A DNA stretch of 64,000 nucleotides, taken from Promethearchaeota archaeon (GTDB taxonomy: Archaea; Asgardarchaeota; Lokiarchaeia; Sigyniarchaeales; SOKP01). The notes below the pieces were generated by a model that had not been told where the DNA came from, ran no database searches, and worked only from the letters and a program-made list of their open reading frames with translations. This document shows, piece after piece, positions 27,346 through 44,981 of the stretch; the stretch's first letter is position 1; each line of letters starts with the position of its first letter. The position numbers and the translations under genes were made by a program. The stretch spans positions 1 through 64,000 of the forward strand of contig JAHLWS010000065.1 of the NCBI GenBank assembly GCA_019057795.1, given 5' to 3'.

Positions 27346-28356
27346 TTAATTAAATTCTTGTTGGTAACTTGCCCAAAAAGAAACTTCTTCTTTAGTAGTT
27401 GGGCAATTATGTGTTGAATTACACATTCCAAAGGCACCATGAAATAGTGTTTCTCCGTTTTTTGTATAAGAGTTAATTAAGTTTTGCCCATAATCAGAAG
27501 TAAGAAATCCAACAAACCTCAATACGCTACTATATTTAACATGTGAATGCATATCGGGGTTCACGGGGATTACACCATAAGGATTAAGTAAATTATCCTC
27601 CCCTACAACTGATTCAGCTAAAATTTTTAAAGTTGTATAGGTATCGTTAAAAGAGAGCCAAGTACCTCGATCTACTAAAGTATAACCCTTATTATTCGCA
27701 TCTTGGTAAGTCATTTGTAAAGTAGCTGCCATACCTTGTCCAGTTTCGGTGTATTTATCAGGCTGTCCAAACCACTCCACATCCGGAGTAACATTGATAT
27801 TTCCCCATAAAGACAATTCTTTGAAATAAGTACCTGATCCATCTCCTCGAGAGTAGAACGCTGAATTGCCAGCATCTATGCTGTCTTTCAATTTTATCAT
27901 AACAGTAGTGATGTTATCATTTGGTAGTAATTCTACAGGATTGTTTTCATGACCAACTATAATAAAATCATTGTACATGACACATGCTCTATTAATCCCA
28001 AAGGGAGTTTGCCCATCGCTATCGTTTACAAATGCATCTTCTCTTGATCTAGAATGAACAAGTATTACATCTACATCGCCATTCTCACCATATAATAAAG
28101 CTTGTCCAGTTCCAACTGATAAAACTGAAACTTCGATTCCTGTTTTTTGAGTAAATTTAGGTAGCAAATAATCTAATAATCCAGAATCATAGGTAGAAGT
28201 TGTAGTTGCTAAAGTAATTCGATTAGGATTTCGTGCAGTTAGTATGTCAAATATAAAATAAGTTCCAAATGAACCCCCAATTATTATTAAAAGCATTAAA
28301 ATAAAGGCGGTTTTATGTTCACTTATTAATATTTTTAATGATTTTTGATGTGGCAC
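27346..28356 (-). CDS. tupA: Tungstate-binding extracytoplasmic protein
   Basis: 336-residue substrate-binding protein. A membrane anchor (about 15-40) leads to ITLATTTSTYDSGLL, whose TTTS motif is the oxyanion-binding signature of TupA proteins selective for tungstate. Further family blocks are GENGDVDVILVHSRSREDAFV and SRGDGSGTYFKELSLWG. The GTG start follows a strong Shine-Dalgarno (GGGAGGAT), rare in this window. As first gene of the run it probably carries the promoter for tupABC and perhaps the moa/moe genes. Confidence 0.9.
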   Translation of the reverse strand: MPHQKSLKILISEHKTAFILMLLIIIGGSFGTYFIFDILTARNPNRITLATTTSTYDSGLLDYLLPKFTQKTGIEVSVLSVGTGQALLYGENGDVDVILVHSRSREDAFVNDSDGQTPFGINRACVMYNDFIIVGHENNPVELLPNDNITTVMIKLKDSIDAGNSAFYSRGDGSGTYFKELSLWGNINVTPDVEWFGQPDKYTETGQGMAATLQMTYQDANNKGYTLVDRGTWLSFNDTYTTLKILAESVVGEDNLLNPYGVIPVNPDMHSHVKYSSVLRFVGFLTSDYGQNLINSYTKNGETLFHGAFGMCNSTHNCPTTKEEVSFWASYQQEFN

Positions 28357-28813
28357 TTTTTTTATCCTCCCGCTAAACTTACGTTAATAATTAATAAGAT
28401 TCCAATAATCATGTCTTTATTTTCCATCTTAAATTCATTCTATTATTTTCTTTAAAAATTTATATTATAATTCAATTTTTTATTATTTAAAAAAGATCTC
28501 GTTTGGTCTGACCAAACATATCGGAGTAATAACGAGCCGTTCAAGTAATGTTGCGATATATCTACCCAGAGGGCTTAAATATTAAAGGAACAGAACTGCT
28601 TAGGAAAATTCAGCAATATTTTAGATTTCTTTATTAAAAGATTCTTTCAGGGCTTTTATCAATTAATTTAAAAAATCTTAAAAAGTTGGATTTTTTTCCT
28701 TCCATTTCTTAAAAACAGTCTCGTTCTCCAAATCAGTATCCTTGATTGCTTTGATTAAATTAGAATAAGCATCCAGCTTGTGATAATTAGCTAGTTTATC
28801 AATATCCGGTAAT
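28357..28813. other. Intergenic region upstream of tupA
   Basis: 457 bp. It holds the tupA ribosome site, AT-rich promoter-like DNA and a perfect palindrome at 28501. A minus-strand frame of 49 codons (28678-28827, TTG start overlapping the vapC end) reads LPDIDKLANYHKLDAYSNLI then KKWKEKNPTF; it looks protein-like but has only a TTG start and no relatives I recognise, so I leave it uncalled. It may be a relic. Confidence 0.4.
28501..28517. promoter_or_regulatory. Perfect palindrome GTTTGGTC-T-GACCAAAC upstream of tupA
   Basis: Exact 8-1-8 inverted repeat, GC-containing in AT-rich DNA, 145 bp before tupA. It could be an operator for oxyanion-responsive control of the transporter, or a hairpin ending the vapBC transcript. 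Confidence 0.5.
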
Positions 28814-29230
28814 TTATATTGGATCAATCCGTTTTATGAGCATTATTTTATCAAAATCTGAATCATGAGAATAGATTTCTTGAATCTTATTCTCTAGTAA
28901 GCTTGCCGCAATTAAGGAATCCCTCCCCCCAGTCCTATACTTTTCAGCTATCTCAAATGCAAATAATATTGAAGATGTAGAAATGTCTAATACATTGATA
29001 TTTTTAGAATCGATAATAGCAATTAACCGCTTCTTAACCTCAACCTCTTTATATTTAAATGCTTTAACTAACGCATGAAAACATTCCATAAATACAATTG
29101 AAGGAATGCTTACGAGTTCTTTTCCATTAACTATATTAATTAAAAGTTCTTTACAAGGTAAATGTTCAGGAAGATCTTTATTTAATGCATACACAAGAAT
29201 GTTCGAATCGATCCCCTTCATGATTTCCAC
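28814..29230 (-). CDS. vapC: VapC-type PIN-domain toxin
   Basis: 138-residue PIN ribonuclease. The acidic metal site is complete: D8 in GIDSNILVYAL, E49 in VFMECFHALV, D104 in GGRDSLIAASLL, and the C-terminal SHDSDFD. PIN toxins cleave tRNA or rRNA. It overlaps the antitoxin gene by 13 bp, giving coupled translation. It sits next to the Rel-TIR locus, which fits a defence-rich neighbourhood. Confidence 0.88.
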   Translation of the reverse strand: MEIMKGIDSNILVYALNKDLPEHLPCKELLINIVNGKELVSIPSIVFMECFHALVKAFKYKEVEVKKRLIAIIDSKNINVLDISTSSILFAFEIAEKYRTGGRDSLIAASLLENKIQEIYSHDSDFDKIMLIKRIDPI

Positions 29231-29448
29231 ATACTCTTACTTGCCTTTATTACATCTACGTTTTTTAAACCCTCTGATAATGGATTCTCTAAAATCTCGA
29301 GAATTTTATCTTTATTAACCATCTTTTTTCTAAGATCATGACAGAAAATAAAATAATCACCAATTTTCATGTTGAGATGATCTGCTTCCTTTTTAATCTC
29401 CCACCACTTCTCTTTTAACTCATCATCAATTACAATATTAGTCCTCAT
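29218..29448 (-). CDS. vapB: VapB-like antitoxin
   Basis: 76 residues. The N-terminal strand and helix (NIVIDDELKEKWWEIKKEADHL) resemble a ribbon-helix-helix, followed by a toxin-binding tail. It directly precedes and overlaps vapC, and a perfect palindrome lies six bases before its start, as expected for an autorepressor. Assignment rests on context and size more than on motif strength. Confidence 0.7.
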   Translation of the reverse strand: MRTNIVIDDELKEKWWEIKKEADHLNMKIGDYFIFCHDLRKKMVNKDKILEILENPLSEGLKNVDVIKASKSMWKS

Positions 29449-29454
29449 ATATGT

Positions 29455-29473
29455 AAGTATGTATTACATACTT
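29455..29473. promoter_or_regulatory. Perfect 9-1-9 palindrome before vapB
   Basis: AAGTATGTA-T-TACATACTT is an exact inverted repeat six bases upstream of the vapB start, a position where repressor binding would block transcription. Probable VapB operator. Confidence 0.65.
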
Positions 29474-29554
29474 AAAAGCTTTACTTAATTTAAATTATTA
29501 TAGACTCTGGAAAAGCACTTGGAAGTTAAAGGATGTTACATTTCTTTTTTAGTA

Positions 29555-29586
29555 GGGGGTTACCACGGGGGAGGGAGATAATAGGG
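29555..29586 (+). other. G-rich tract with four G-runs
   Basis: Runs of 5, 5, 3 and 3 G with loops of 7, 1 and 8 bases, standing out sharply in AT-rich DNA between vapB and the rel gene. It could fold as a G-quadruplex on the plus strand or be a relic of inserted DNA. Confidence 0.35.
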
Positions 29587-29653
29587 AGAAAATAATATCC
29601 ATCAGTTTAAGATAAAAAGTTAATTTAAAAATTAATAAATAAAAGTTAGTTAG

Positions 29654-29682
29654 GGCATTGTTATAATGTTAGTATCTTCGTC
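29654..29682. repeat. 29-bp copy of the 3' end of the coiled-coil gene at 38571
   Basis: 29654-29682 is identical to 38575-38603, the last codons (DEDTNIITM) of the coiled-coil/winged-helix gene, in the same orientation. It lies just past the rel stop. The copy suggests that an end of that gene once stood here, or that recombination linked the two loci. Confidence 0.85.
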
Positions 29683-29687
29683 TAATT

Positions 29688-31697
29688 TTATTGAGAGAGA
29701 AATTTTTTAATATGATCAGAATTATTTTCCACATTTGTTAAGTTCTCGCATTTCCAGGTAGGATCTTGGAGTAATTCTGTACTAGAGCCGCCAATTTTTT
29801 CTAAAAGGCCAACAAATGCTCCAAAAACTAAAGCTAATCGATATTCAAAAGCAGAAATTTTTCCCCCTCCAATTCCAAAAAGTTTAATTTTACTAGAAGT
29901 AAGTTCGTTTAATACAATATCCGTCCAATAGTGGAGTGCCTCTAAAAAACTAAAATCATTCCCATCAGTCTGATGTATTTTTAAATACCTTTCATCAACC
30001 TTAACATCTCCGGGAAAATTTTTAGGAATGTAGCCAACAGTTTTAATTGAATTCGGATACGCCTTCTGGATATCACCTACAAGGTCACAGACACCAGCAA
30101 CTGTGCTTCCAGAGATAATTGTTCCTTCAAAAGATTTTAATGCTTCTAATAAATTTCTTTGTAAATCTTGCCCGAGTTCTTCCTTACTTAGTTTCGTACT
30201 TCCTGTAATAATGACAAGTGGTATGCTCAAACCACCCTCCTTTACGTCATACTCTTTTTTCAATCGATTTATTGCATCTTTATCCTTGAATCGAATAGCT
30301 AAACCAAGTATTAGTAAATGTCTTACTAATTTAATTCCTTGTAACTTATCATCTACAATGCTAAGACTATCCAGATCATTTAAATGAGAAGAGATCATCC
30401 ATCCTGCTGTACTAAACCTTATCCCCAATAAATAATTATGTAAACTTTCATTTATCTCTTTAGAAAATAATTTAAACAGCCCATTATTGAAATATGCCCA
30501 AGGCATGTTAATTCCAACTGAAATTTGCTCTTCACTCATTTTAATTATGTTTTTTATAGCTGGTAATGAATAATCAAGGATATCGATATTTTTATTAAGA
30601 GTAATATTAGTAATAAAGTAATTAACACCAGTATAGGTATCATCAGGATTAACATTATAAGATTGGTTATAACAGTCAAGCGACCTTTTAAGATTTAGTT
30701 TCTTCCATGAACCGCCTAAGCATGTTAAAGCATCGGTATCTTCAGGATCCAATTTAATTGCTTCTTCTAAATATTTTTGTCCTTGTTGATATTCAGTGCC
30801 ATTAGGATTATTAGCATAATATTTGTATAAAGCAAGACCAAGTTCTCTTAATGCTGAAGAATTATTGGAATTGACAAAATCAGTTAGTAGTTTTATATTA
30901 AGATCCCATTTTTCTACAGCTCTTGCTAGTTTTACAATTCTTAATATTAAATTAAGTTCTTTTGATTTATCAGGGGCAGTATCATATACCAATTCCAAAC
31001 TATTAATTTTATTGTTTATTTCTTGAGCAGTCATATATGCTCCATAATTCGCCTCATATATGCTCAAAAATTCTAAGCTATTCTTAAATTCATAGTCAGC
31101 ATCTTCAAGAATTGCCGCAATTCGATAGAATTGCCGCTTAATTTTATCTGGAATTTTAATACTTGGTTTATATAAATTATCATGTTGAATAACACTCCAA
31201 CAATGTTGAAGAAGAGTTCTTATTTGAAGTTCCGCTTTAAGTTGATAAATCTCATCAGGAACATCAAGATCTTGTAGATATATGGAATCTGGAATTAATT
31301 GTACAATATAATGATGAGATAAATATCCAAATTGATCCTCATCTAAAGTATCGAGTTTGTCCTCGCTATCTTCCCATTGTATTTTGAAATTCTCTTCTAT
31401 TATTTGGCAACATTTCTTTACATCATCTAGAGTTGGTAAAATAATACGTCCACCGCACAGATCGGTTAAATCTTCAACAGGATTTGGTCCATACTTCTCT
31501 GCTTTCCCAGGGCGTTGTATTTTTTCTGCATAACTCGTTACCGCTTTAGCACGTGTTTGAACTATGCTTTCAGGAGAAATATTTTTCGCAATTTTTTTAA
31601 GAATCAATTCAAGTATTTCTGCATATTTAACAAAATCTTTACGACATTCTTTGTAATTATTAATTTCTCTTATAAGCTCATCTCGATCTTTTTTCAT
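29688..31697 (-). CDS. RelA/SpoT-like nucleotide pyrophosphokinase with TPR and SLOG-like domains
   Basis: 669 residues with three parts. About 45-178: a synthetase domain with RAKAVTSYAEKI, DLTDLCGGRII, FGYLSHHYIVQL and the catalytic-Glu block ELQIRTLLQHCW, then HDNLYK; no HD hydrolase domain precedes it. About 285-360: TPR-like helices (KYLEEAIKLDPEDTDALTCLG). About 490-650: a Rossmann-like fold resembling SLOG nucleotide-binding domains (LVIITGSTKLSKE, GTIISGSTVAGVCDLVGD, GIGGGKISAFEYRLALVFGA). It would make (p)ppGpp-like or other pyrophosphorylated nucleotides under control of a ligand-sensing domain. It is followed on the same strand by two TPR-TIR genes upstream. The Rel call is firm; SLOG is a pattern-based inference. 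Confidence 0.8.
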   Translation of the reverse strand: MKKDRDELIREINNYKECRKDFVKYAEILELILKKIAKNISPESIVQTRAKAVTSYAEKIQRPGKAEKYGPNPVEDLTDLCGGRIILPTLDDVKKCCQIIEENFKIQWEDSEDKLDTLDEDQFGYLSHHYIVQLIPDSIYLQDLDVPDEIYQLKAELQIRTLLQHCWSVIQHDNLYKPSIKIPDKIKRQFYRIAAILEDADYEFKNSLEFLSIYEANYGAYMTAQEINNKINSLELVYDTAPDKSKELNLILRIVKLARAVEKWDLNIKLLTDFVNSNNSSALRELGLALYKYYANNPNGTEYQQGQKYLEEAIKLDPEDTDALTCLGGSWKKLNLKRSLDCYNQSYNVNPDDTYTGVNYFITNITLNKNIDILDYSLPAIKNIIKMSEEQISVGINMPWAYFNNGLFKLFSKEINESLHNYLLGIRFSTAGWMISSHLNDLDSLSIVDDKLQGIKLVRHLLILGLAIRFKDKDAINRLKKEYDVKEGGLSIPLVIITGSTKLSKEELGQDLQRNLLEALKSFEGTIISGSTVAGVCDLVGDIQKAYPNSIKTVGYIPKNFPGDVKVDERYLKIHQTDGNDFSFLEALHYWTDIVLNELTSSKIKLFGIGGGKISAFEYRLALVFGAFVGLLEKIGGSSTELLQDPTWKCENLTNVENNSDHIKKFLSQ

Positions 31698-31746
31698 TTT
31701 AACTCATTTAATTTTTAAGTTAGTTTACATTTTACAATCTATTTAT

Positions 31747-34272
31747 TTACACTTTATCATGTTCATAAAGAGTTGGTAATATTACTTCTCGTAATTTAGG
31801 GTAAAAATCGGAATCAGACATGAGATATTTCTTCATAGATTGAATATCAGCAATATCAAACTCTAATTCACTGGGTAATTCAGTCTCCTTCAGATAAACA
31901 CCAAAAAATCTCTTCTGTCTTTTCGAAGCGAAGCTAATTTCCTTCATTACATAATCTGAATCGAGTATATGCGGTGTAATAAATAGTAAAAAAGCTTTAC
32001 ATCGCTCTAAATTTTCCACGATTGATCTTTTCCAATTCTCGCTAATAGGAATTCCTTCATCATACCAAATATGTATACCCTTTTTATTAAGATAGTCTAT
32101 TATTGGATATACTTGGAGTTTGTCTGTGTGAGAATAACTAACAAAAACAAATGGCTCATCTCCTTCATATGCTTCAAATGGCATTTGAAATTTCTGTGGA
32201 TCGGAAAGAAAGCTCTCAACTATCAGGTTTTCAAGAGAAGGATGCTTATTTATTTCTATAACCTCATTTACATTTACAACATTTTTCAGGGTCTCCATAA
32301 GACTAGAATCCTTTTTTAAATTCTCACAAAAATGATCTAATTTCTGCTTAGCACTATATGAATGACCTTGGAACATATAATAGATGCAAATATTTTCTAT
32401 TGCTGATATAAGGATTGTGTATTGACCAAATTTCACACGATCAAAAGATTCGGAAAAAATTTGATCGCAAAATGCATTACAAGAAGAAAGAAACTCACCG
32501 AAGTGGGACTCGTCGATAGTCATATCTGCTGTAAATGGACTGGATAATAAAACATCTCCCTCTTTTGTCATTATAGCAAATAATATAGGCTGTTCTGCAT
32601 CTAACTTCGGAGGTTTTACTACACGTTTTCTGAGCATTTGTCCCATTTGATCGTTTAAACGAGCTAATTCTATACGCTCCTCTAAAGGCGCTTTTGAATC
32701 TCTTAAGTGCTCCCATAAGTTTAGTTGATTAAGCAATTGATCGTGTTCACTTGATATCCTCATAGCTAAACGAGTAAGACCATATTTTTCAGCTATTTCT
32801 TGAGCTTTAGCCAATAATCTTCGGGCTTCTTCTAGATTCAATGAGATTAATGCTAATTTAGCTTGTAGAAGATAAGTTTCCCCCAAAATCCAAAATGAAT
32901 GTGATTTATCGGATAAATTTAATAGTTGGGTAATAAAAGGCTTGATCTCTTCTAAAATTTCTACTTCATTAGTCATTTGTAATTCAGCGAGGAGCAATTC
33001 ACATAAGTTAAGTAATGTTTTTAGTAAAATACCAATTTGTAAATCCTTTTCTTCAAGAATTTGCCTTAATAATTCTTCAGCTTTTACCCGATTGCGGGCT
33101 CGAGGACTGGTTTTCAATAGCAAAGCCTTATCAAAAAGATACACTAAATTAATAAATTTGTCTTTTAATTGACTGTTCAATTGCTCCAAATCACGAAGAG
33201 AATTCCGTGCTCGTTCAAGATCGCCCATATCAATTAATATCTGAATTAAAATGTTAAGGTTAAGAGCTAGTTCTCTTAAAACTCCTAACTCACGGCTTAA
33301 TCCCATAGATTGTTCTATACGCTCTAAAGCACGATCCAATTCTCCTTTCATTCGATAACTTTCAGATAAATTGTTAAAAACATAAATCATTAAGTATTTA
33401 TAGTTAAGTTCATTGTAAATTATCAAGCTTTGCTCAAAAAGCATAATACTACGATCCAATTCACCTCTCATTGCATAACTATCTCCCAAATCGCTAAGAA
33501 CCCTTGCTATCATAAATTTATTGTTAAGTTCATTGTAAATTATCAAGCTTTGCTCAAAAAGCATAATACTACGATCCAATTCACCTTTAACCAGATGTAC
33601 CCCTGCCATATAGTAAAGACAATATCCAATAACATTTTTATTACCACTTTCCTCGGCAAGAGCCAAGCCTTGCTTCAAGTATTTTAAAGCACGGTCAAAA
33701 TCACCTTTTAGATACGTAAATACATGGGCAATTCCTACAAGGGAACGCGCAATTTCTTTTTTAGCACTAAGTTCTTCTCGCAATGATATACTGAGCTCAA
33801 ACTGTTTTACTGCATGATCAGCCTCACTTTTTTGTTCGTAAGCCCATCCTTTCAGAAAAGCTATATACGCCTCTCTTTGCTTGTACTCTGCGGGTAATTC
33901 TAGTGTTAAAGTTTTTAGCAGTTCTTCTCCCTGCTTAATGATATCGTGAGCTTTATCCGTTGGACCTTGACCCATACGTAATAGAGCTAAAGCCATTATT
34001 AGTAAGATATCAACTGATAGAAGGTTATTTCCTAATCCTAAACTCTCTTTATATGTTTGTTCGGCAAGTTTTACACTATCTTCATATAAACCTCGCTCAC
34101 ATAAGAGCTCACATTTGAGGAAATAACATAAAACTATATCGTGAAGAGTGTGTCCTCCTTTTTCCTCAAAGCTCTTTATTAATTGCTCTGCTTCATCAAG
34201 CTTATATTCATCAATGAGTTGTTTTGCTCGAATTAATTCCTTAGGTTCTAAATAAGTCATATGTTTTTCCAT
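31747..34272 (-). CDS. TPR - longin-like - TIR protein (copy 1)
   Basis: 841 residues. About 1-540: TPR helices, including kinesin-light-chain-like repeats of exactly 40 residues (LDRSIMLFEQSLIIYNELN occurs twice). About 561-665: an alpha-beta domain (PILFAIMTKEGDVLLS, FGQYTILISAIE) that looks like a longin/roadblock-type module. About 704-841: a TIR domain (FVSYSHTDK, IWYDEGIPISENW, FITPHILDS) with Glu778 in VMKEISFA at the position of the NAD-cleaving Glu. It probably binds a partner or ligand through TPRs and acts by NAD hydrolysis or signalling. Paralogue of the next gene; 49 bp upstream of rel. Confidence 0.82.
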   Translation of the reverse strand: MEKHMTYLEPKELIRAKQLIDEYKLDEAEQLIKSFEEKGGHTLHDIVLCYFLKCELLCERGLYEDSVKLAEQTYKESLGLGNNLLSVDILLIMALALLRMGQGPTDKAHDIIKQGEELLKTLTLELPAEYKQREAYIAFLKGWAYEQKSEADHAVKQFELSISLREELSAKKEIARSLVGIAHVFTYLKGDFDRALKYLKQGLALAEESGNKNVIGYCLYYMAGVHLVKGELDRSIMLFEQSLIIYNELNNKFMIARVLSDLGDSYAMRGELDRSIMLFEQSLIIYNELNYKYLMIYVFNNLSESYRMKGELDRALERIEQSMGLSRELGVLRELALNLNILIQILIDMGDLERARNSLRDLEQLNSQLKDKFINLVYLFDKALLLKTSPRARNRVKAEELLRQILEEKDLQIGILLKTLLNLCELLLAELQMTNEVEILEEIKPFITQLLNLSDKSHSFWILGETYLLQAKLALISLNLEEARRLLAKAQEIAEKYGLTRLAMRISSEHDQLLNQLNLWEHLRDSKAPLEERIELARLNDQMGQMLRKRVVKPPKLDAEQPILFAIMTKEGDVLLSSPFTADMTIDESHFGEFLSSCNAFCDQIFSESFDRVKFGQYTILISAIENICIYYMFQGHSYSAKQKLDHFCENLKKDSSLMETLKNVVNVNEVIEINKHPSLENLIVESFLSDPQKFQMPFEAYEGDEPFVFVSYSHTDKLQVYPIIDYLNKKGIHIWYDEGIPISENWKRSIVENLERCKAFLLFITPHILDSDYVMKEISFASKRQKRFFGVYLKETELPSELEFDIADIQSMKKYLMSDSDFYPKLREVILPTLYEHDKV
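33403..33586. repeat. 120-bp spaced direct repeat inside the TPR region
   Basis: A 64-bp segment at 33403-33466 recurs exactly at 33523-33586. The 120-bp spacing equals one 40-residue TPR unit, so one repeat was copied recently within the gene. It leaves the frame intact. Confidence 0.9.
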
Positions 34273-34475
34273 AAATTATCGGTTTAAAAACTTGGATTTA
34301 TACTTTAAAAATACAATTAATATATTAAGTAATTAAGTCAATTACAATTTTAAATATAATACAATTTGTTTTCTCCAGTTATTTATATCATTTTCTTTTT
34401 TTCAATTTTTATATCCTTCTTTCAACTGATTATTAATTTATTCTTTAATAATTATTATTCGATTTTGCAAATCAT

Positions 34476-36839
34476 TCATCCATGAAGCACAGGAAACAGT
34501 GTATTTCTTAACTTATCATAAAATTCGGTTTCTGGCATGAGGTATTTTTTCATTGCTTGAATTTCATCCATATCAAACATTAGCTCATGAGGTAATTCTG
34601 TTTCTTTCAAATAAATCGTGAAAAATGGCTTATGCATTTTCATTGCATAATTAATTTCTTTCCTCACATATTCTGAATCTATTATATGAGGGGTTACAAA
34701 CACCAAAAAAGCATTACACTTATCTAAGTTTTCTACTATGGATTTCTTCCAATTCTCGCTAATAGGAATCCCTTCATCATACCAGATATTTAATCCAATT
34801 TTATTAAGATAATCTATAATAGGATAGACTTGGAGTTTGTCTGTATGAGAGTAGCTAGCAAAAACAAATGCCTCATCTCCTTCATATGCTTTAAATGGCA
34901 TTTGAAATTTGTGTGGATCAGATAGAAAACTCTCAACAATTAATTCCTCAAGAGAAGGATGTTCATTTATTGATATAATCTTATTCTCGTTAACAATATT
35001 TCCCAGAAATTTCATTAAAGTGGGATCTTTTTTAATTGCATCACAGAAATGGGTTAATTTCTGCTGAGCACTATATGAATGTCCTTGGAACATATAATAG
35101 ATGCAAATATGTTCTATTGCTGATATAAGGATTGTGTATTGACCAAATTTCACACGATCAAACGATTCTGAAAAAATTTGATCACAAAAAGTCATACAAG
35201 AGGTTAAAAACTCACCGAAGTGGGTCTCATCAATAGTCATATCCGCAGTAAAGGGGCAGGATAACACCATCTCACCCTCTTTTGTCATTATAGCAAATAA
35301 TATAGGCTGTTCTGCTTCCAATTTTGGATATTCCATCACACGTTTCTTGGTCATGTGTTTTATTTGATTAGCCAAACGAGCTAATTCTATACGTTCTCCC
35401 ATAGGGGCATTTGATTCTCTTAATCCCTCCCACACACTCAATTCATTTAATAATTTATCATGTTCTTCTGAAATACTCATAGCTAACCTATTAAGACCAA
35501 ATTTTTCAGCAATTTGCTGTCCTTTAGCCAATAATCGTCTAGCTTCTTCCAGGTTAGATGATATTAAAACCATTTTTGCTTGTAATAGATACGCTTCGGC
35601 TTGAAGCGAGTATGAATGTGTTTTTTCGGCAATATTTAATAGTCGACCAATATAATCTTTTATTTCATCCACGATTTCCATATCGTTGGTATTACGTAAA
35701 TCTACTAAGAGTATGTCACAAAGATTAATTATAGCAATTTTTTGCCCAGCATCCTCTTCAATTACCTCTTTTAATAATTTTTGAGCCTTAGCTAAATTGC
35801 TAATTCGCGGTTTAGTTTTCAACAATAAAGCTTTGCTTACACGATATAGTCTATTAACCCCTTTATTTTGTGTTTGATCGGAAATTTCTTTTATCTGTTG
35901 TAAGTATTCCTCTGCTTGGTTAATCTCATTTTTACTTATAGTTATTCGTAATAATGTGTACATAAATGAAGCGAGAAAAGGAATATTATGACCGACTTGC
36001 CTATACAATGTCAAACCCCGTTCACTAAATATTAAAGCTTGATCAAAATCACCTTGGCTATAATAAATATTGCCAATGCAGTCTAAAAAATATGCGATAT
36101 TTATTTTACCGCTATTAAGTTTCTCAGCAAGCGCTAAACCTCGTTTATAGTAGATGAGGGCATGATCCAATTCACCTCTTTGATTATAAAAAAATCCCAT
36201 ATGATAGAAAAGCCATGTAAGAAACGCATTAAAACCTTTTTCTTCAAGTGCAAGAGCTTTATCATAGTATTTCAGAGCTTGTTCCCAATCACCTTGAGAT
36301 AAGTAATTTAACCCAATATATTGATAAAATCGTGCAATTTCATGCTTATTACCTAGTTTTTTTTGCAGTGCTAATCCATATTTAAGATATTTTAAACTAA
36401 GCTCTAAATCCCTTTCAAGATAATTATCCACATTAATATAACCTTTTATAAGAGCAATAGCAGATTCTATCCTGTTGTGTTCAATTGTCGTTTCTAGAGT
36501 AATAGTTTTAAAAAATTTTTCACATTTCATAATCACCTCAAGACTCTCGTTATATCTCTCAAGATACATAAAAGCCTCAGCCATTTCAATGGATACATCA
36601 ATTGATTGGATAGGAGTTCCTAATTTTTCAGCGTCTTTATAAGTTTTTTTGGCAAGTTTGAGAGCATCTTCATGGAACCCTAGCTTGTTTAGGAGAGTAC
36701 ACTTAATGATATTGTTGGAAAGTTGATCTTGAGATGTAATACCTTCATTTTTCTCTATTTCTTTGATTATCTTAAAGGCTTCAATAAATTTACCTTCTTC
36801 CTTAAGATGTTTTGCTTGAAGCAATTCTTCAGGATCCAA
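34476..36839 (-). CDS. TPR - longin-like - TIR protein (copy 2)
   Basis: 787-residue paralogue with the same order: TPR helices (about 1-500; DWEQALKYYDKALALEEKG, FDQALIFSERGLTLY), longin-like domain (about 511-615; FAIMTKEGEMVLS), TIR (about 654-787; FASYSHTDK, VTPHIIDS) with Glu728 in VRKEINYA. By hand alignment the TIR domains of the two copies are roughly 70-75% identical and the longin-like parts also very close, while the TPR halves match poorly. It starts at ATG 36839, preceded by AT-rich DNA; 203 bp separate it from copy 1, so each may have its own promoter. Confidence 0.82.
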   Translation of the reverse strand: MDPEELLQAKHLKEEGKFIEAFKIIKEIEKNEGITSQDQLSNNIIKCTLLNKLGFHEDALKLAKKTYKDAEKLGTPIQSIDVSIEMAEAFMYLERYNESLEVIMKCEKFFKTITLETTIEHNRIESAIALIKGYINVDNYLERDLELSLKYLKYGLALQKKLGNKHEIARFYQYIGLNYLSQGDWEQALKYYDKALALEEKGFNAFLTWLFYHMGFFYNQRGELDHALIYYKRGLALAEKLNSGKINIAYFLDCIGNIYYSQGDFDQALIFSERGLTLYRQVGHNIPFLASFMYTLLRITISKNEINQAEEYLQQIKEISDQTQNKGVNRLYRVSKALLLKTKPRISNLAKAQKLLKEVIEEDAGQKIAIINLCDILLVDLRNTNDMEIVDEIKDYIGRLLNIAEKTHSYSLQAEAYLLQAKMVLISSNLEEARRLLAKGQQIAEKFGLNRLAMSISEEHDKLLNELSVWEGLRESNAPMGERIELARLANQIKHMTKKRVMEYPKLEAEQPILFAIMTKEGEMVLSCPFTADMTIDETHFGEFLTSCMTFCDQIFSESFDRVKFGQYTILISAIEHICIYYMFQGHSYSAQQKLTHFCDAIKKDPTLMKFLGNIVNENKIISINEHPSLEELIVESFLSDPHKFQMPFKAYEGDEAFVFASYSHTDKLQVYPIIDYLNKIGLNIWYDEGIPISENWKKSIVENLDKCNAFLVFVTPHIIDSEYVRKEINYAMKMHKPFFTIYLKETELPHELMFDMDEIQAMKKYLMPETEFYDKLRNTLFPVLHG

Positions 36840-37100
36840 CTAAGACCTCTCTATATAAAGATTTGATTTGTTTAGATTATAAATTTTTAAATACAATTAA
36901 TATATAAGGGTAATTACTATTTTAAATGTAATTAAGGTTAATGAGTTGTTGGTGAAATAGAAAAAAAGAATTAAAAAAATTATAGTCCCAGAAAATAATG
37001 AAGAATTAGATGATGATCATTTTTAAAATTTTGAGAAACAATAAAATAAGACTTATCAATTCTATAAAAATAAAAATACAACAGGACTTCATTAGTGGGG

Positions 37101-38150
37101 CTAGGGTGAGAACCAATTTCCCCCCTTCATTTTTGATTCTTTGAGGACCTCTCTATCATAGGCACCGAATTCTTCCTCGGCCCTGTTGATGTAAGCATTA
37201 AATCCCTTGAAATCGAATCCGGCGAGGTTGCAGAGGATAGCGTCTAGGGACACGAGGTCTCTGCCAAAGGCCACAACCCCCAAGCCCTCTATAATGTTGT
37301 ATTTGCGCTTGAACATATCTTCAAACTTACCTTCAGGATGGAGGACGGCCGTGTTGTTCAACGCTTCACAAATCCCGTAAATGTTGAAGAGAGAGTGGTA
37401 AATTTTGTTAATGTCGACGATACTCTTTGCAAGCATGCTATTTTCTGGTCCATGCCACCATGGCCTCCATGGATCGGGTATCATTCCGAAAAGGTTCTTC
37501 AAAGTGAATGTGTTGAAGTGTTTCAGTTTAGCTAAGCTGATGAACGTCGATCCACGCAGGTCGTAAAGTCTTTTCGGTATCATACTATAAAGCTTGTCTA
37601 TTTGAACCGGTTTGAAACGTGTCTCCACTATCCTCTTTACTTCTGTTGGATCTGCTATCCTTCCACTCCAAACTTCATCGGTCACGCAGATGTAACTGAC
37701 ATTGAACTCCTTGAAGAGATCTGTGAACCCATATCTGCCAAGGAAGGCTTTATCCTCCTTCTTGATCTGATCCCAGTATCCACCTTTCTTAAACCAGTCC
37801 CAATCCGGGTTTTCGATAAACCAGTTCCAACCGCCGCCATCTATTATCCACTTTAAGTTCACCTCCTTGTCCTCGACGACGAAGCTCATCCCCTCCTTTA
37901 GGAGTTCATTAACCACGTGTGTGGAGGATTCCGTGACCACGATATGGGCGTCAAGTGCCTCCAATATCGTTCTCAAAGTCTTGGAATCGATGAAATGTGC
38001 TGGTTCTGTTGATACCCAGTTTGGTTTGATGATGATGGTCTCGGATTCGAGCCAAGGGTCAATCAATAGCTGCTTTAATTCATCGGAGTTGCTTACTTTC
38101 GCTATGGTTATCTGACCGAACTTGTGATAGGGAACAGACATGTTCAACAT
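37101..38150 (-). CDS. DUF362 family protein
   Basis: 349 residues matching DUF362 (IIIKPNWVSTEPAHFIDSKT at the start, later FISLAKLKHF and FGRDLVSLDAILCNLAG). The family is often iron-sulfur or metal related, but its biochemical role is not established; no ferredoxin CxxCxxC cluster is present here. A run of Trp-rich sequence (GGGWNWFIENPDWDWF) is notable. The gene is much richer in G+C (about half in one 60-bp line counted) than its neighbours and ends in TAG, suggesting lateral origin. It stands between the TIR locus and the coiled-coil pair. Confidence 0.75.
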   Translation of the reverse strand: MLNMSVPYHKFGQITIAKVSNSDELKQLLIDPWLESETIIIKPNWVSTEPAHFIDSKTLRTILEALDAHIVVTESSTHVVNELLKEGMSFVVEDKEVNLKWIIDGGGWNWFIENPDWDWFKKGGYWDQIKKEDKAFLGRYGFTDLFKEFNVSYICVTDEVWSGRIADPTEVKRIVETRFKPVQIDKLYSMIPKRLYDLRGSTFISLAKLKHFNTFTLKNLFGMIPDPWRPWWHGPENSMLAKSIVDINKIYHSLFNIYGICEALNNTAVLHPEGKFEDMFKRKYNIIEGLGVVAFGRDLVSLDAILCNLAGFDFKGFNAYINRAEEEFGAYDREVLKESKMKGGNWFSP

Positions 38151-38570
38151 ATAGTTTTTAAATGAGTTTAGCTAATTCTTTAGGGTCTGAATGAGACATT
38201 TAATCATCTTTACTTAATAGATTTGATAAATAAACTTGGATTAGTTTTTTTTATACAATAGAAATATTAAGATAACAAAAATTATAAATATCTTCTTTTC
38301 TCTTTTAATCATCTCGATTGATTATATGTTCAGAAAATGGTTTGATATTTTTTAGAGATTAAATGGTGCGAATTGTATAAATTGTAAAAAAAAATCATTT
38401 TCGTATTTCTTAGAAAAACCTTTAAATCTAGAATAATTGAGAATGAGATCACAGAGAAAATTGATTTTAAGCGTAAATTTTTTTTTATTTTCTTTTTTAG
38501 GATTTCTCTCTTTTAAAAATACGAAAACGCTTTAAAATTTAAAAAAGAACATTAAAAATAAGAAAAAAAG
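38151..38570. other. AT-rich intergenic region upstream of DUF362
   Basis: 420 bp without a credible reading frame. It should hold the DUF362 promoter on its left side and the end of the coiled-coil operon on its right. Several T-runs near 38478-38505 could terminate the leftward coiled-coil transcript. Nothing else stands out. Confidence 0.5.
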
Positions 38571-39308
38571 TTAAGGCATTGTTATAATGTTAGTATCTTC
38601 GTCAAGATTTATTATACCCTTTACTGCAAGCTGTTTAATAGTTCTAACAGCCATAATTGGAGGAACATCAAGCAGTTTTTTCAAGTCATTAAGATTACAG
38701 CTACCTTGAGCCATAATAGTGGCTATTATATCAACCTCAGGAAAATCTTCTTTAGAATTTTCTATTAAAAACGATGTAAAGTAGCTATCCCTTTTTAAAT
38801 AAGTTAGTTTTTTATTTAAATCTTCCATCTTTTGCCCTGTATATGTTGTTTTTAGTTGATTTTCCTTGTTTTCGTTATCGATCTTTTTCTGGTCTAACTG
38901 TGACTTTTCTAACTCTTTTGAAGCGATTTTTTCGTTTATGGTATTTAACTTCGATAAATTGTTTTCAAGCTCAACTTTAGGTGTCTTGAGATCGTCATTT
39001 ATACTCTCTAAAGTGCCTTTTAATTCCGAAACTTTTGATAAGGATTCGTCCTTTGTAGATTTTAAGCTTTCAAGTTTTTTATTTAAATCATCTGCTTTAA
39101 TTTTTAATCCAGTTAATTCATTCTTTTGAATTTCAATATTTCTTTCTATTTTTTGGAGATCATCATGCTCTAATTTCATCAATTTCCATGTTGAGCTTAA
39201 ATTTTGAATAATATTTTCGCAATTTTTTTGAAAGGCTTGCTGATATTCGTCAAAATATTTTTCAAGTTGTTCAATTGATCCTAAAATATCTTTTAAACTT
39301 GAACTCAT
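38571..39308 (-). CDS. Coiled-coil protein with C-terminal winged-helix-like domain (copy 1)
   Basis: 245 residues. About 20-185 is a long charged coiled coil; the last 60 residues (VDIIATIMAQGSCNLNDLKKLLDVPPIMAVRTIKQLAVKGII) look like a small winged helix. The start overlaps the stop of the next gene by one base (TAATG). Both genes share this layout, so they may form a heteromeric rod. A role in DNA or membrane organisation is possible, but I recognise no known family and do not claim ESCRT. Its 3' end recurs as a 29-bp copy near the rel gene. Confidence 0.65.
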   Translation of the reverse strand: MSSSLKDILGSIEQLEKYFDEYQQAFQKNCENIIQNLSSTWKLMKLEHDDLQKIERNIEIQKNELTGLKIKADDLNKKLESLKSTKDESLSKVSELKGTLESINDDLKTPKVELENNLSKLNTINEKIASKELEKSQLDQKKIDNENKENQLKTTYTGQKMEDLNKKLTYLKRDSYFTSFLIENSKEDFPEVDIIATIMAQGSCNLNDLKKLLDVPPIMAVRTIKQLAVKGIINLDEDTNIITMP

Positions 39309-44546: not shown

Positions 44547-44699
44547 TTCTTTCTTTCTCATTTAAAAGAATAAAAATAACTCTTTTTCAAACCCAAGTAA
44601 TAATCTGATATACAATGTAAAAAAGAAACCTAATGATATCTTTTATTGTCTAAACATAAAGATTCTTTCCCAATTATTTTAAAAGTAAGAATGTTTAAA

Positions 44700-44784
44700 T
44701 GCGGGAAGGGAGATTCGAACTCCCGAACCCCTACGGGACTGGATTCTGAGTCCAGCGCCTTTGACCAAGCTTGGCAATTCCCGC
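44700..44784 (-). tRNA. tRNA-Leu (anticodon CAG)
   Basis: On the minus strand the acceptor arms are GCGGGAA and TTCCCGC with discriminator A. The anticodon stem CTGGA/TCCAG encloses the loop CTCAGAA, giving anticodon CAG. A 14-base variable arm with the stem CCC-GTA-GGG marks a class II tRNA, and the T arm is GGGAG-TTCGAAT-CTCCC. CCA is not encoded and there is no intron, both normal in archaea. Confidence 0.95.
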
Positions 44785-44981
44785 ATTGAATTAATTTTCG
44801 AAAGTTTCCTTTGCCAATAATATTAGAGACTGAGGAATATAATTACACGAAATTTTTATATCTTGTGAACTTTGCAGTTGTTAAAGTCCAGTTTTTAAAA
44901 TACTAAAATTAAGAAAAACCTAATATTAAAATAAATTAAAATCTTATACATCGATAACTAATCGAAAGGGGAATTTAAATA

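Follow-up and report, generated by a model that had tools for sequence, protein, structure and literature searches.

A mobile Lokiarchaeial cassette linking TPR-TIR genes to a RelA/SpoT-TPR-S-SLOG gene: a candidate Thoeris-like immune module

CapRel is a single protein that senses phage directly. In the Thoeris system, a cyclic ADP-ribose (cADPR) isomer made by a TIR protein activates the SIR2-SLOG protein ThsA, and one ThsA gene occurs with one or several ThsB genes (PMC11204291). A SLOG-type domain, MHR1/2, binds ADP-ribose (ADPR) in zebrafish TRPM2 (PMC13143021). Here, we describe a gene cassette in a 64,000-nucleotide stretch of DNA (designated the window; positions 1 to 64,000 of contig JAHLWS010000065.1, assembly GCA_019057795.1) from a Lokiarchaeial metagenome-assembled genome. 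The cassette encodes two TPR proteins ending in TIR domains beside a RelA/SpoT synthetase that carries TPR-S and SLOG-type domains (designated the Rel protein). We give roughly even weight to the reading that this cassette is a horizontally moving two-component immune module, in which the TIR receptors signal and the Rel protein responds. The contig (G000:C65, where G000 is the genome of the window and other G numbers are genomes compared) is 187 kb long; contamination of the genome was estimated at 7.5%, and the same locus is present in independent assemblies.

The cassette resembles type I Thoeris in that TIR genes lie beside the gene of a single SLOG-bearing effector, with one effector to one or several TIRs (PMC11204291), and in that TIRs of the ThsB type with the catalytic Glu are present. 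Comparison with type I Thoeris also revealed that (i) the window effector is a RelA/SpoT synthetase with TPR-S instead of SIR2; (ii) its SLOG domain is of the TRPM/LSDAT type; and (iii) the window TIR proteins are archaeal and bear TPR arrays and a Loki-specific domain. Pfam and PADLOC searches gave no SIR2, macro, or ThsA match in the effector, and as the domains that define ThsA are missing, we did not classify the cassette as Thoeris. Like CapRel and the toxic small alarmone synthetases, the window protein fuses a Rel synthetase to a sensing region; unlike CapRel, it contains TPR-S and SLOG domains and has a TIR partner. Its SLOG domain belongs to the same subfamily as TRPM2 MHR1/2 according to Pfam and the best PDB matches, although one protein is an ion channel and the other a synthetase, and the sequence homology is weak. 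The PADLOC candidate model PDC-S33 matched residues 6–168 of the window protein (8.4e-18) and a bacterial Rel homologue (5e-17), but most of the match lies in the Rel part, and the model names neither a partner nor a mechanism. The SLOG/SLATT/RyR nucleotide-conflict systems (Burroughs et al. 2015, cited in PMC13143021) are similar to the bacterial Rel homologues, which have RyR domains and NUDIX, TrkA-RyR, SLATT_1, NACHT or NB-ARC-TPR, and TIR neighbours, whereas the Asgard Rel proteins lack RyR domains, do not adjoin NUDIX genes, and are paired with TIR receptors. The pairing of TIR with Rel-SLOG was not found in the literature searched, a set that did not extend to the 2015 SLOG survey, which may list part of it, and is unmentioned in the searched portions of two recent archaeal/Asgard defence surveys (PMC11291487, PMC12988326). 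The parts are already known, and the cassette as a whole seems to be an archaeal variant, not previously described, of a Thoeris-like antiviral system.

A preliminary description of the window had placed here three consecutive same-strand genes encoding a RelA/SpoT synthetase with a SLOG-like sensor and two TPR proteins ending in TIR domains with the catalytic Glu. The three open reading frames (ORFs) were found exactly where it had put them, all on the minus strand, and the domain assignments of the three proteins were upheld. The Rel gene (29688–31697, start ATG, from the ORF list and Pfam) encodes 669 residues and comprises a synthetase region (~31053–31697), a TPR-S region (~30243–31052), and an LSDAT/TRPM-type SLOG region (~29691–30242). 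In the full-length protein, the Pfam RelA_SpoT domain scored over its cut-off (E-value 3.6e-15), and TPR-S (2e-5) and LSDAT_prok (0.024) both scored under theirs. LSDAT_prok matched 12 of 12 SLOG segments of the family at E-values of 0.01 or lower (best 2.5e-10), and the window segment alone at 0.0021, under the curated cut-off. The family alignment contains the SLOG motifs GG...GGT...G(I/V) and GGG..(S/A)..EY, with GSTVAGV in place of GGTxxGV in the window protein. A whole-protein fold search gave no SLOG among its top 50 matches. Because that list was crowded by synthetase and TPR matches, we used a SLOG-only sequence profile against PDB, and its top matches were the TRPM channels TRPM2 and TRPM7, weakly (best E-value 0.04). 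The SLOG domain is predicted to be of the TRPM (LSDAT) type, more firmly in the family than in the window protein.

The synthetase region retains its putative active site. Residues R49, K51, S55, K59, D79, E156, Q158, and R160, which we take from established family knowledge to be the catalytic and ATP-binding positions, are invariant or at least 90% conserved among 25 homologues, and the GYxSxH motif is kept in the window-type Rel proteins. The AlphaFold (AF2) model of the protein is confident (predicted local distance difference test score [pLDDT] 88.4); the fold match of its N-terminus is Bacillus subtilis SAS1 (5dec, TMt 0.78), and CapRel (7ztb) is also among the fold matches. Pfam searches revealed no HD hydrolase domain in the protein and no HD_4 alarmone hydrolase domain in the genome of the window, so the protein is like a small alarmone synthetase and not a long RelA/SpoT homologue.

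This fold, equal to that of small alarmone synthetases, would suit ordinary stress regulation, with Rel as a stringent-response enzyme and the TIR proteins as cytoplasmic scaffolds. However, the RelA_SpoT domain (threshold 1e-5) occurs in a minority of the Lokiarchaeia, 15 of 83 genomes of the class with one copy each, and its distribution is patchy and mobile. The single Rel per genome and the lack of an HD_4 hydrolase in the window's genome speak against a stringent response and for a conditional, potentially toxic enzyme. We therefore rejected the stringent-response reading as scarcely credible. Thirteen of the 15 genomes encode Rel-TPR-S-SLOG proteins, one encodes a Rel domain fused to another region (G027), and one contains a remnant (G071). 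In the G027 protein (contig G027:C403, locus L058), which lies at a contig end, the Rel domain is followed by a region of ~750 residues in a different architecture.

The two TIR genes lie upstream of Rel. TIR2 (31747–34272, minus strand, 841 residues, start ATG; from the ORF list, Pfam, and homologues) consists of a TPR array (~32593–34272), a Loki C-terminal domain (~32188–32592), and a TIR domain (~31750–32175); TIR3 (34476–36839, minus strand, 787 residues, start TTG; from the ORF list, Pfam, and PDB matches) has the same organization (~35310–36839, ~34905–35309, and ~34479–34892, respectively). Both proteins contain many TPRs and matched Pfam TIR_2 (6.7e-17 and 3.2e-15), with weaker matches to the ThsB_TIR profile. 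The catalytic Glu is present in both proteins and in every partner TIR protein; in a G045 protein with four TIR domains, one inner copy has Asp instead. The nearest solved TIR domains by sequence are BtTIR and AbTIR, the latter deposited as an NAD(+) hydrolase. The TIR proteins probably turn nicotinamide adenine dinucleotide (NAD) into a signal, and the earlier suggestion that one protein of the cassette makes or senses a nucleotide while the others act on NAD is plausible for these predicted roles. The domain between the TPR array and the TIR domain had been called a longin domain, an assignment that is unproven: profile searches of Pfam and PDB with 13 family members gave nothing convincing, and the predicted order of strand-strand-helix-strand-strand-helix, which is longin-compatible, comes from a poor model (pLDDT ~30). 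The same domain, unnamed in Pfam, also occurs without TIR in a large family of Lokiarchaeial proteins of ~650 residues whose genes are often in tandem (G025, G033, G007:C48, G049, and G050).

The linkage between Rel and TIR genes was analyzed by searching for Rel first among 58 relatives, which revealed window-type Rel genes in G000, G003, G010, and G017, and then with a family profile over the 83 class genomes, which added G068. In all five genomes, a gene encoding a TPR-C-terminal domain-TIR protein lies directly upstream of Rel with a gap of 47–63 bp. Distant Rel proteins (31%–43% identity) adjoin other TIR architectures. Counting both, the neighbours of Rel are visible in 11 Lokiarchaeial loci, and in 10 of them a TIR gene directly adjoins it (G000, G003, G010, G012, G017, G060, G066, G068, G072, and G070, with G032 as the exception; the G079 contig ends within the locus). 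Each of these genomes has 1–7 TIR domains, and G045 has 26; G017 has a single TIR, which lies beside Rel. The chance that a random gene touches a TIR gene is 0.001–0.004 per genome, and we rejected chance adjacency. The TIR partners represent at least four architectures, which by themselves correspond to a chance of ~1e-10, with the reservation that the genomes are related and the counts not fully independent. They include NosD-TIR proteins (G066 and G060), a TIR protein whose outer part looks NosD-like by eye (G012), an 833-residue TIR protein (G072), and an LRR-TIR protein whose gene adjoins a tandem Rel pair (G070); in G045, TIR arrays lie a few genes from Rel. One Rel gene per cassette is set against 1–3 TIR genes with differing TPR arrays; G010, for example, has one Rel gene, two full TIR genes, and the tail of a third. 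The co-occurrence count called for in the preliminary description found Rel and TIR genes as neighbours in several lineages far above chance, with a TIR gene also near Rel in 6 of the 15 bacterial loci examined, and supports its proposal that the genes work together.

Several observations weigh against reading the cassette as a receptor-responder pathway. In the window protein itself, the SLOG domain has weak homology to TRPM. The GYxSxH motif is gone from one Lokiarchaeial Rel subclade (G012, G066, G072, G079, and G060), whose Rel proteins may be inactive or changed. G015 encodes a related TPR-TIR protein without Rel, and G032 encodes Rel without a nearby TIR. Linked genes in an island need not share one pathway, and the TIR proteins may act through NAD depletion alone. 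In a different explanation, two independent defence genes share a mobile island through defence-island clustering, the TIR proteins acting by NAD loss and Rel as a CapRel-like toxin. The solitary genes in G015 and G032, several bacterial loci with Rel and no TIR, and insertion sites that are hotspots with other cargo (described below) are consistent with such independence. However, clustering alone would usually leave other genes in between, whereas the adjacency is immediate, with the same gene order and a 47–63-bp gap in five genomes, and Rel recurs with unrelated TIR partners; we regard independent action as unlikely.

The selection pattern bears on the direction of signalling. The TPR arrays of the TIR proteins are 34%–63% identical between types and have ratios of nonsynonymous to synonymous substitution rates (dN/dS) of 0.32–0.64 (nearly all 0.36–0.63), and constraint is seen in the C-terminal domains (0.08–0.26), the TIR domains (0.06–0.20), and Rel (0.19–0.28). 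Both G017 and G010 show swaps of TIR domains between paralogues; the G017 hybrid joins a TIR3-type TPR array (91%) to a TIR2-type TIR domain (96%). Fast-evolving TPR arrays, swapped TIR domains, and one Rel are the pattern to be expected if variable receptors fed one conserved output, for which they are indirect evidence. In the reverse order, the Rel protein would sense through TPR-S and SLOG and make an alarmone, and the TIR proteins would destroy NAD once the alarmone or Rel engages their TPR or C-terminal domains. TPR-S is named for "sensor", TIR NADases can kill through NAD depletion, and both enzymes look active as judged from their retained catalytic residues, all of which suit this order. 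Nevertheless, it is the TPR arrays of the TIR proteins that vary and evolve fast, as receptors would, and Rel is conserved and single-copy; varied sensor-like modules (NosD, LRR, and TPR) are found on the TIR partners around one kind of Rel; and SLOG domains of this class are known as readers of ADPR-type signals. We consider the reverse order quite unlikely.

The cassette has the order DUF362-TIR3-TIR2-Rel, and its homology to G003 and G017 stops sharply at 29683. Directly after Rel, the cassette end abuts 29 bp that exactly duplicate the 3' end of a 245-residue gene (38571–39308): the distal repeat (29654–29682, minus strand) has 0 mismatches to the proximal repeat (38575–38603, minus strand), which lies inside the 3' end of that gene at the other border of the cassette. 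Insertion into the 3' end of a gene would be expected to leave such a pair of repeats. G003 and G017 also carry this cassette, but ~6 kb further along the gene order that they share with the window, next to tRNA-Leu; in the window, that site (tRNA-Leu at 44699–44785 and adjoining intergenic DNA to 44918) is unoccupied. In G002 and G007, the window's insertion site is filled by other genes. The Rel tree does not follow genus, as Rel of G068, from another genus, is window-type and Rel of G012, from the window's genus, falls in the other subclade. The differing sites and this conflict indicate movement of the unit from genome to genome. A recombinase gene was not found in the cassette, and a viral origin was rejected, as viral contigs contained no Rel or TPR-TIR relatives at the search sensitivity used.

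The DUF362 gene (37101–38150, minus strand, 349 residues, Pfam E-value 1.5e-13) travels with the cassette and is either a core part of it or a passenger or accessory. In G017 and G010, the gene for a 96%–99% identical protein adjoins the TIR genes; close copies were found only in G000 and G010 of the 27 genomes searched, a paralogue exists elsewhere in the window's genome, and the G003 and G068 contigs end short of the corresponding position. The surrounding hotspot (28356–38571) extends from a PBP gene to the 245-residue and 278-residue genes and holds different cargo in each relative: genes of 585 and 318 residues in G002 (L120), of 308, 340, and 245 residues in G003 (L049), and of 402 residues in G007 (L121), and in the window the TIR-Rel cassette and a VapBC-type pair.

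This VapBC-type pair, described earlier as adjoining the three genes, is real: a PIN gene (28814–29230, Pfam E-value 4.8e-14) overlaps an upstream 76-residue ORF (29218–29448). It is not part of the unit, as it lies beyond the cassette boundary (~29683), and the cassette of G003 has no such pair next to it. Its presence at the same site, together with the small spacing and co-transfer of the cassette genes, might suggest a toxin-antitoxin-like unit in which Rel restrains the TIR proteins, or the reverse, with no signal cascade. However, both Rel and TIR keep their catalytic residues, the window Rel is large and multi-domain, and a TIR gene stands alone in G015, which together make such a unit very improbable.

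Full-length homologues of the Rel protein are present in Planctomycetota, Nitrospirota, Acidobacteriota, Verrucomicrobiota, KSB1, Cloacimonadota, and other bacteria. The Asgard Rel proteins form one clade (100/100), and their nearest bacterial relatives are L095 and L099, the latter a Thermodesulfovibrionia locus with a TIR gene two genes downstream of Rel. All 15 bacterial homologues examined have an added RyR domain; their neighbours include NUDIX (9 loci), TIR within a few genes (6), and TrkA_N (4), and single loci adjoin SLATT_1, a NACHT-TPR protein, and a TIR-NB-ARC-TPR protein. A set of Rel-TPR-S-SLOG-RyR and NUDIX, often with TrkA_N or TIR, recurs (L099, L102, L104, L109, L111, and L112) and is a candidate nucleotide-signalling defence system of its own.

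Other Lokiarchaeial loci contain further combinations of these domains. A 29-kb contig of G045 (G045:C4, L052) carries two Rel-TPR-S-SLOG genes, one of them interrupted by a stop, together with genes for the four-TIR protein and another TIR protein, and a region that weakly matches AAA/2H-phosphoesterase. Contig G070:C38 (L086 and L124), where the tandem Rel-type genes lie by the LRR-TIR gene, a gene for a DUF4062-AAA-TPR protein, and several more TIR genes, is an Asgard island rich in receptor-like immune proteins. The NosD/beta-helix proteins ending in TIR (G066 and G060; L082 and L085), of 1689–1900 residues, are possible envelope receptors with an inner TIR domain.

In the receptor-responder mechanism that we favour, the fast-evolving TPR array of a TIR protein would recognize an invader or an effect of the invader, and the conserved TIR domain would act on NAD to give an ADPR-type signal (ADPR or a cADPR isomer). 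The Rel protein would be the single shared responder, whose TRPM/LSDAT-type SLOG domain would bind the TIR-made signal and release the N-terminal synthetase; this synthetase would transfer pyrophosphate to a nucleotide, giving an alarmone, or to tRNA/RNA, and thereby arrest growth, to which the loss of NAD would add. The scheme would be Thoeris-like, in that a TIR makes a signal and a SLOG effector reads it, with an alarmone-type synthetase replacing SIR2. We tentatively propose, at slightly less than even confidence, that this is a new class of TIR-signalling immunity, in which an ADPR-type messenger made by a TIR protein would be bound by a TRPM-type SLOG domain and so activate a synthetase that forms an alarmone or pyrophosphorylates tRNA. 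NAD signalling and the toxicity of Rel would then meet in a single archaeal pathway, with exchangeable receptors and one responder.

If this is true, two immune currencies, NAD-derived messengers and Rel-type pyrophosphorylation, would be joined in one pathway, and the presence of a single Rel enzyme without a stringent response in a few Lokiarchaeia would be explained. The variable TPR sensors on one TIR output would form an Asgard receptor array with a logic reminiscent of plant and animal immune receptors, and the cassette would offer a prokaryotic context in which to test the SLOG subfamily that serves as the ADPR sensor of animal TRPM channels.

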